Part shown: piece after piece, positions 42,271 to 45,411 of the stretch
Numbering within the stretch: the stretch's first letter is position 1
How the letters are laid out: each line of letters opens with the position of its first letter
From: Acidimicrobiia bacterium
GTDB taxonomy: Bacteria > Actinomycetota > Acidimicrobiia > IMCC26256 > JAMXLJ01
Reading direction: 5' to 3'
DNA length: 47,474 nt
Assembly (NCBI GenBank): GCA_035651955.1
Contig: DASRES010000004.1
Location: forward strand, 1 to 47,474
Made by a program: the position numbers and the translations under genes
The notes under the pieces: model-generated
Told to the model about the DNA's origin: nothing
Databases searched by the model: none
Seen by the model: only the letters and a program-made list of their open reading frames with translations

Positions 42271-42909
42271 TCAGGCGCGTGCGCGCGCGAAGCGTGACTT
42301 CGCGCGTGCGAGCTCGACGACGACCGGCGGCGCGACGTCGGGTGACCCTGCGTTGAACGGGGGTCGCGGGTCGTACTCGAGCGAGAGCTGGATGCCCTGG
42401 GCGACGAGGTCGCCCTCGAGCATCGAGGCGAGCAGCAGCGCCATGTCGATGCCCGCGGACACGCCCGCCGCGGTGATGATCCGACCGTCGACGACGACAC
42501 GCGCCGACACCGGGTCCGCGCCGAGGCGCGCGAGCTCCTCCCGCGCGAGCCAGTGGGACGTCGCGGGCACGCCGTCGAGCAGGCCTGCGGCCGCGAGGAC
42601 GAGCGACCCGGTGCACACCGACGCCGTCCACGTCGTCGTCTCGTGCACCGCGCGCAACCAGGAGAGCACGTGGTCGTTCGTGCGCACGGCGACCTCGCCC
42701 GGCCCGCCCGGCACGACGACGACGTCGGGCGCGACGACGTCGTCGATCACCCGGTCCGCGACGATGCCGGCACCGCACATGTCGCGGTGGACGCGCGCCT
42801 CGGCCGCGACGAACGACACCTCGGCGCGCGGCACGCGGGTCAGCACCTCGTACGGTCCGATCGCGTCGAGCGCGGTGAAGCCGTCGAACAGCAGGATCGC
42901 GATCTCCAC
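42271..42909 (-). CDS. DJ-1/PfpI-family protein
   Basis: 212 aa. VEIAILLFDGFTALDAIGPY at the start, PDVVVVPGGPGE, then the nucleophile elbow TASVCTGSLVLAAAGLLDG with Cys 99, and AATSHWLAREEL after it. The group includes glyoxalase III/deglycase-like, isonitrile-hydratase-like and AraC-related amidase-fold proteins; the His three turns after the Cys suggests a hydrolase-type member. I chose the GTG at 42909 because homology starts there and a TAGCCT -10 box ends 8 nt upstream; a GTG ten codons earlier is the alternative. Confidence 0.8.
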   Translation of the reverse strand: MEIAILLFDGFTALDAIGPYEVLTRVPRAEVSFVAAEARVHRDMCGAGIVADRVIDDVVAPDVVVVPGGPGEVAVRTNDHVLSWLRAVHETTTWTASVCTGSLVLAAAGLLDGVPATSHWLAREELARLGADPVSARVVVDGRIITAAGVSAGIDMALLLASMLEGDLVAQGIQLSLEYDPRPPFNAGSPDVAPPVVVELARAKSRFARARA

Positions 42910-42917
42910 GGGCCGGG

Positions 42918-42923
42918 AGGCTA
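42918..42923 (-). promoter_or_regulatory. -10 box (TAGCCT on minus strand), likely leaderless start
   Basis: On the minus strand TAGCCT ends 8 nt before the GTG at 42909, which supports that start over the upstream one. Confidence 0.4.
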
Positions 42924-42967
42924 CTGGCGCGACCGTCACGCGTCTCGCGTGATTCCGCTGCGCGACG

Positions 42968-43736: not shown

Positions 43737-43758
43737 TGTGCAACCCCATGGTTGCACA
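43737..43758. promoter_or_regulatory. Operator 1, perfect 9-bp inverted repeat
   Basis: TGTGCAACC-CCAT-GGTTGCACA. The right arm contains the -35 (TTGCAC, 43752-43757) of the plus-strand promoter. Confidence 0.7.
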
Positions 43759-43784
43759 TTCCGCGCCGGTCGGGTACGGTGCAA
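43752..43784. promoter_or_regulatory. Overlapping divergent promoters of clpP-like and SRPBCC-arsR genes
   Basis: Plus strand: TTGCAC (43752-43757), 17-nt spacer, TACGGT (43775-43780). Minus strand: TTGCAC (43784-43779), 17-nt spacer, GAATGT (43761-43756). Each -35 lies in an arm of one operator and each -10 touches the other, so repressor binding should shut both directions. Confidence 0.6.
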
Positions 43785-43798
43785 CCAGCCGGTTGCAC
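43779..43798. promoter_or_regulatory. Operator 2, perfect 8-bp inverted repeat
   Basis: GTGCAACC-AGCC-GGTTGCAC, the same arms as operator 1 with the centre 41 bp away, close to four helical turns. Confidence 0.7.
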
Positions 43799-43822
43799 AT
43801 CTACGAACAGGAGCTGCGAGCC

Positions 43823-44470
43823 GTGGCGCACGTCCTCGTCCCGACCGTGATCGAGCAGAGTCCCCGCGGCGAGCGCGCGTTCGATGTCTACTCCCGCCTG
43901 CTGCAGGAACGGGTCGTGTTCCTCGGCACCGAGATCGACGGCGACAGCGCCAACCTCGTCGTCGCGCAGCTCCTGCACCTCGAGGCGGCGAACCCGGAAC
44001 GCGACATCAACCTGTACGTGAACAGCCCGGGCGGCGAGATGACCGCGCTGTTCGCGATCTACGACACGATGCAGCACGTCGCACCGGACGTCGCGACCAC
44101 GTGCGTCGGTCAAGCGGCGTCCGCGGCCGCCGTCATCCTCGCCGCCGGCGCCCCGGGCAAGCGGGCGATCCTCCCGCACGCACGGGTCCTGATGCACCAG
44201 CCGCACGGTGGCGTCCAGGGGCAGTCCACCGACATCGAGATCGCCGCGCGCGAGGTCGCGGCGCAGAGGGGCGCGATGGTCGACGCGCTCGCGCGTCACA
44301 CTGGCCAGACGCGCGACCAGGTTGAGCGCGACATCGATCGCGACTTCATCCTGCGCGGCGAGGACGCGGTCGCGTACGGCGTCGTCGACTACGTGCTCGA
44401 GCAGCGCGTGCTCACGGCCGCCGCGACGGCGACGCCCTCGACGAACGGCCACGCGCGCGTAACGCGCTAG
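43823..44470 (+). CDS. clpP: ClpP-family serine protease
   Basis: 215 aa, ATP-dependent Clp protease proteolytic subunit. Motifs: [53 protein letters not shown] with the nucleophile S100, and MHQPHGG with H125; the catalytic Asp is in ERDIDRDF (about 174). The nucleophile loop reads AASAAAV instead of the usual AASMGA, and the tail has a Thr/Ala extension, so it may be an accessory ClpP. AGGAG at 43809-43813 supports the GTG at 43823. It stands alone, divergent from SRPBCC-arsR, not next to tig, clpX or a second clpP. The stop overlaps the convergent lipoprotein stop (CTAG). Confidence 0.88.
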
Positions 44471-45411
44471 TGCAGGATCGGTCCGGTGTCGACCGCCTCG
44501 AACGCCGACCCCGGGACCGTCTTCAACTGGTTCAGGTCGTCGTCGTTCCAGCGCGCGTCGGCGGCGCCCGTGACGTACCAGTTGCTCCCGTTGTCGGCGA
44601 CGATCATCCCGTAGCGCTTCAGCGCGTCGACGATGACGCGCGCCTCCCCGTGGTACGGCGTGACGTCGAAGCTCGCCTTCAGCCGCAGCCGCAGCCCCAT
44701 CGGCGGCAACGACGGATCGGTCGAGGACGACGCGTCGTGCGTCGCGGGATGGATGTAGCCGCGCTGCGTCCGTGCCACGGTGAACCGGAGCGCGTGATGG
44801 ATCGCGCCCGACGCGACCTCGTCGTAGCGCGCGAGGCCGGGGAGGATCGGCAGGCCGGCCGCGTCGGCGGACGTCCACCCGTCGGGACGGAGCGCATCCG
44901 ACCGGAGGTCGAACACCGCGCCCGAGTCGGCGTTCCAGTGGTCCCCCTCGGGGAACGCCCGGTACATCTCGTAGAGCCGGCAGTGGTCGACGTCGACAGC
45001 GAGGACGTGTCGGTCGCCGTCACTCGACGCGCCGCCCTCGACCGGCGCGGCGAGCGGCACCGGATACGGCCCGGGGTCGCTCTCGTCGCCGTACGCCGTG
45101 AAGTCGACGGGCACGCCGGGCTGCGCGTGGACCGCGACGTACGGGATGCCGTACGCGCCGCCACCACCGAAGTCGGCGTGCAGGTGTCCGGTCAGCCCGA
45201 TGCTCGCGACGTACGCGTCCGAGCCCGCCGCGACGGGCAACGACGACACGTCCGTGTTCCACGCGTTGTCCGCGGGGAAGACCGGGCACCCGCCGAGCGA
45301 CCCGTTCTCGACCATCGCCGGCGAACCCGCGGTGGGCGGCTGCGCGACCGTCGCGCACGCGCTGAGCGCGGACACGAGGATCACGACCGACACGAGCACG
45401 ATCCGTCGCAC
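44467..45411 (-). CDS. Secreted lipoprotein of unknown function
   Basis: 314 aa. Lipoprotein signal [11 protein letters not shown] (Cys 19). The mature part is well ordered: [85 protein letters not shown] and [16 protein letters not shown] recognise this as a recurring family of exported actinobacterial and soil-bacterial proteins without an assigned function; the conserved Asp, His and Cys residues suggest an enzyme or binding fold. GTG start. Its stop codon shares four bases with the clpP-like stop on the other strand. Confidence 0.7.

Follow-up and report, generated by a model that had tools for sequence, protein, structure and literature searches.

Why should a gene for a ClpP peptidase face an operon for an ArsR-family regulator across an intergenic region that carries the same palindrome twice? 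The usual interpretation of an ArsR regulator is that of a metal or redox switch; ArsR-SRPBCC pairs, which are common in Actinomycetota, are to our knowledge largely uncharacterised. The locus analysed here lies in the window, by which we mean the whole 47,474-nucleotide stretch of DNA. From comparison of its sequence with those of relatives, we propose that it is a divergent, locally acting switch in which ArsR, through two operators, probably represses both clpP and its own SRPBCC-arsR operon.

The features of the locus are collected in Table 1. The minus-strand operon, which had been given as arsR-SRPBCC, in fact begins with the SRPBCC gene and continues with arsR, the arsR start overlapping the SRPBCC end in an ATGA; on the other strand a GGAG (43810-43813) precedes the clpP GTG. 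Membership of the regulator in the ArsR/SmtB family follows from a score of 68.5 bits against NF033788 (cut-off 55) and from matches to HTH_20 and HTH_5. The cysteine metal site of ArsR/SmtB metal sensors, for example a CxC in the recognition helix, is absent from the window ArsR: its translation contains no cysteine at all, so that a thiolate metal site is excluded, and a cysteine is present in just one of 27 clpP-linked ArsRs. These genes are flanked by a DJ-1/PfpI-family protein adjoining arsR (window 42271-42939, minus strand) and by a 314-aa, probably secreted protein adjoining clpP (window 44467-45411, minus strand), which gave no Pfam or NCBIfam match.

Table 1. Genes, operators and promoter elements of the SRPBCC-arsR/clpP intergenic locus (window coordinates).
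Feature	Position	Strand	Remarks
SRPBCC/AHSA1-domain protein, 136 aa	43710-43300	minus	first gene of the operon; PF08327 6e-16, PF10604 6e-9; from translation
ArsR-family regulator, 111 aa	43303-42968	minus	second gene; NF033788 3e-19, PF12840 5e-15; from translation
Operator 1 (SRPBCC-proximal), GTGCAACC-CCAT-GGTTGCAC	43738-43757		exact palindrome; overlaps predicted clpP -35
Predicted clpP -35, TTGCAC	43752-43757	plus	in right arm of operator 1
SRPBCC -10 candidate of the sequence-only reading, GAATGT	43756-43761	minus	weak, not conserved
Predicted clpP -10, TACGGT (TANNNT)	43775-43780	plus	abuts operator 2
Operator 2 (clpP-proximal), GTGCAACC-AGCC-GGTTGCAC	43779-43798		exact palindrome; overlaps predicted clpP -10 and start site region
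clpP, 215 aa, GTG start	43823-44470	plus	PF00574 1e-72

The sequence-only reading had described two perfect 20-bp palindromes with identical arms and an N4 centre, 41 bp apart from start to start, and both are present exactly so. Within the whole window they are the only sites with three or fewer mismatches (shuffles give 0.16), and they are also the only perfect GTGCAACC-N4-GGTTGCAC copies in the 4.1-Mb genome, where a motif search, proposed as a check, yielded no further one. Sites with up to three mismatches number 16 genome-wide as compared with 12 for a reversed control pattern, and the weaker genomic sites are therefore at chance level. The paralogous ArsRs of the same genome, at most 46% identical, carry no such operator motif.

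The search for close relatives of the window ArsR covered 149 related genomes, 395 genomes of the class and, from a collection of bacterial genomes, 66 loci. Outside the class, 54 of the 60 loci examined have a TGCAACC-N4-GGTTGCA-like site pair upstream of the SRPBCC-arsR operon, among them loci of Streptomyces, Nonomuraea, Actinomadura, Micromonospora and others, as well as Bacillaceae. In these operons, as in the window, the operator sequence is the same, the sites are paired and arsR is the last gene; in contrast to the window, the spacing is nearly fixed at 33-34 bp (33 bp in 32 loci, 34 bp in 20, with 43 and 44 bp once each), and the upstream genes vary from locus to locus, so that no conserved divergent partner was found there and none of the upstream genes was clpP. 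On this sequence evidence the operator pair belongs to, and travels with, ArsRs of the window type, and the putatively autoregulated module, to which the window locus conforms in having an SRPBCC gene beside arsR and the TGCAACC-N4-GGTTGCA pair upstream, is old and widespread.

The closest experimental parallel is Rv2034 of Mycobacterium tuberculosis (Rv2034-Rv2035-Rv2036), an ArsR autorepressor and operon-mate of a polyketide_cyc2 protein, which was footprinted on CCGTAAGT-N4-ACTTACGG, an 8-N4-8 geometry, and was unresponsive in vitro to the metals tested (PMC3338718). In both systems the coding sequences of arsR and of a neighbouring SRPBCC-type gene overlap, and both have 8-bp arms around a 4-bp centre at their own promoter. 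They differ in the arm (CCGTAAGT as against GTGCAACC here), in gene order (arsR comes first in the Rv2034 system) and in targets, since for Rv2034 a single site, at its own promoter, was footprinted, several remote targets are reported and clpP is not involved. The ArsR-SRPBCC autoregulatory module is thus known; new here would be that the module also controls a second ClpP.

Within the window's class, which is apparently Acidimicrobiia, judging from two named Acidimicrobiales loci (L051 and L060) in the linked set, the operator pair lies between SRPBCC-arsR and a divergent clpP in 32 loci from 24 genera and 13 family-level groups; comparison of this intergenic region in relatives, which had been suggested as a check, thus finds the pair conserved. 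In each of the 30 linked loci that were tabulated a copy of operator 1 occupies the corresponding position, and operator 2 is likewise conserved. In two of the 32 loci clpP is incomplete: in one (G207) it runs off the contig end, and in the other (G090:C14:146565-147107; L037, L143) it contains an in-frame TGA, which may reflect a pseudogene, a sequencing error or recoding; the second ClpP of that genome is intact. For two loci of one genus (L195, L196) the sequence retrieved contains SRPBCC-arsR and no clpP. Most of the relatives are known from draft genomes, and a missing clpP or housekeeping ClpP may in some of them be an assembly gap. A close ArsR is present in 32 of the 395 genomes of the class, and the one same-genus genome, the nearest, gave no match to the window ArsR at E<=1e-18; since most genomes of the class, and this near relative, do without it, the system is dispensable.

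The predicted reach of the regulator is short. In 31 linked genomes the pattern YGCAACY-N4-RGTTGCR occurs at 66 sites, 59 of them at this locus and seven elsewhere (the reversed pattern occurs twice), and because so many of the sites fall at the locus the predicted regulon hardly extends beyond the divergon. The seven sites off the divergon (G002:C6:1564, G043:C19:713, G043:C263:3508, G046:C118:1757, G048:C8:56542, G108:C4:29564 and G204:C168:1116) are possible extra targets. At one locus (L025), half-operator direct repeats (GATGTGCAACCTGGC, with a 16-bp period) stand ahead of the pair, about 200 bp upstream of clpP.

By its sequence the linked gene encodes a ClpP peptidase: besides its PF00574 match, the window protein scores 283.5 bits against PRK00277 (cut-off 249) and has an intact Ser-His-Asp triad, and the catalytic Ser, His and Asp are retained in all 28 linked ClpPs aligned. 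As the description of a stand-alone clpP implied, it is separate from the tig-clpP-clpX (trigger factor) locus on contig C1, which encodes the other of the two ClpPs of this genome. The housekeeping protein is of the same family and lies on a separate branch of the ClpP tree; its locus differs in having clpX and trigger factor adjoining and no operator nearby. No Clp ATPase gene stands beside the window clpP, and clpX and further ClpB_D2-small proteins are encoded elsewhere in the genome. The linked ClpPs fall into several groups on the ClpP tree, and forcing them into one clade lowers the log-likelihood by 51 units (AU p=0.003), a result to be read with the caution that some branches are long; because they are not one clade, this neighbourhood has either persisted or been reassembled with ClpPs of different ancestry. 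A single ClpP, the linked one, was recovered in each of two genomes (G002 and G068), and the idea that it is the sole ClpP of some species was dropped, since neither assembly has a recognisable housekeeping clpX either, and the absence of the tig-clpP-clpX locus may be no more than an assembly gap. Two zinc-finger genes may be recorded here: in the window genome, a protein with a Clp N-domain-like start and a ClpX-type zinc finger (contig C26, near 11335; L191), and in G002 a similar gene two genes from the linked clpP (L199).

Extra ClpPs with a regulator of their own have a precedent in Actinomycetota, where PopR and ClgR control clpP3clpP4 and clpP1clpP2 of Streptomyces as activators that are themselves degraded by ClpP (PMC9765437). 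Those activators belong to a family other than ArsR, their clpP genes are paired and there is no SRPBCC partner; the regulator adjoining the window clpP is of ArsR type, with no adjacent or cognate activator of the PopR/ClgR kind. By analogy with the degradation of ClgR and PopR by ClpP1P2 (PMC9765437), the ClpP of the present system might also degrade ArsR or SRPBCC, closing a feedback loop. The retained neighbourhood fits such an arrangement, which would add to the repression model and not compete with it, and we regard it as a rather improbable refinement.

Which promoters do the operators cover? The proposed clpP promoter, TTGCAC-17-TACGGT, can be read on the plus strand (43752-43780), and its -10 is conserved: a clpP-directed TANNNT lies no more than a few bases from operator 2 at 23 of the 26 non-redundant loci, as compared with 2.75 (sd 1.5) when the spacers are shuffled, none of 2000 shuffles reaching the observed number. 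The -35 assignment holds for part of the set. In the window (17 bp), and in 12 of the 16 loci with an operator spacing of at least 40 bp, this one included, the TTGCAN of operator 1 is 16-19 bp upstream of the clpP -10; as a general rule it fails, being at -35 distance in none of the 14 narrow-spacing loci, where the gap is 1-8 bp. The general rule for the predicted clpP promoter is instead a -10 placed against operator 2. A functional role for the 41-bp, four-turn spacing was rejected, because spacing in relatives ranges from 27 to 58 bp, with 33-34 bp typical where clpP is absent. In family f9 (L008, L030, L034, L035 and L036) the clpP start codon falls, in frame, in the 4-bp centre of operator 2 (TGCAACC-ATGC-AGTTGCA), and a TANNNT-N6-ATG arrangement in 4 of these 5 loci suggests a leaderless clpP mRNA with the operator sitting on the start site.

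The mirror-image promoter for the SRPBCC gene fared worse. TTGCAC-17-GAATGT is readable on the minus strand (43784-43756), GAATGT matching TATAAT at 2 of 6 positions, and we rejected it as the SRPBCC promoter because a corresponding -10 occurs in 2 of 26 relatives, with 1.9 expected by chance. No promoter came out of a generic sigma-70 scan of the operator region, on either strand. In about a third of 30 loci, the window not among them, a TANNNT in or just past operator 1 is followed 5-8 bases on by a start codon, which suggests that the SRPBCC mRNA of those loci is leaderless. The claim that clpP and the arsR operon are both under ArsR control thus very probably stands, given an operator pair that travels with ArsR, the 32 linked loci and the conserved clpP promoter; what finds no support is the SRPBCC-directed promoter within the shared 33 bp.

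Repression of clpP by ArsR is the best reading of these sequences, since the clpP -10 abuts the clpP-proximal operator in nearly all non-redundant loci; autorepression is less well supported, because no SRPBCC-arsR promoter could be placed with confidence. ArsR, presumably as a dimer, would bind both GTGCAACC-N4-GGTTGCAC operators. At operator 1, which is immediately upstream of the SRPBCC gene and covers the predicted clpP -35, it would block that element and also repress SRPBCC-arsR; at operator 2, which covers the -10 and the start site (predicted at about 43785-43790), it would block clpP. The repressor would be released by a signal for which ArsR or the SRPBCC protein is most likely the sensor; the hydrophobic ligand or stress suggested as inducer by the sequence-only reading is a guess. 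The extra ClpP then made would presumably join the Clp ATPases that the cell already has, either on its own or in mixture with the housekeeping ClpP.

Might ArsR autoregulate its own operon only, with clpP a neighbour that tolerates the operators and draws no useful control from them? The same pair does serve SRPBCC-arsR alone outside the class, beside varied upstream genes; within the class, however, clpP adjacency recurs across family-level groups and with ClpPs of several lineages, and the conserved -10 between the operators faces clpP and not SRPBCC, all of which makes this explanation improbable. Somewhat less probable still is activation of clpP by ArsR in place of repression. Rv2034 reportedly acts in this way on phoP and dosR, although it represses its own gene (PMC3338718); operator 2, however, overlaps the clpP -10 and start region, or in one family the start codon, and sites so placed typically serve repression. 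That the palindromes are RNA hairpins, acting as terminator or attenuator and not as DNA operators, is very unlikely, for although each could fold as a single-strand hairpin, no terminator-like T run was found, the arms are conserved in sequence beyond what pairing alone would need, and both palindromes are at or upstream of the predicted clpP start.

In the library searched, literature searches on ArsR and SRPBCC operators, on ArsR and clpP, and on the motif found no prior report joining ArsR, SRPBCC and clpP. Its conservation across many families of the class suggests that the arrangement is a genuine switch dedicated to a protein-degrading enzyme. A broader scheme is possible, though we hold it tentatively: ArsR and an SRPBCC ligand sensor may turn on a class-wide inducible alternative Clp protease, in which the second ClpP takes the place of the housekeeping ring or mixes with it and changes which proteins are degraded, separate ClpP lineages having been recruited under the same switch more than once. 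The ArsR-SRPBCC pair found here has an output that is clear and conserved, namely a protease core, and a predicted operator that can be recognised by sequence. It offers a concrete target for learning to what SRPBCC-linked ArsRs respond, and points to a way in which bacteria may exchange Clp core subunits when needed.
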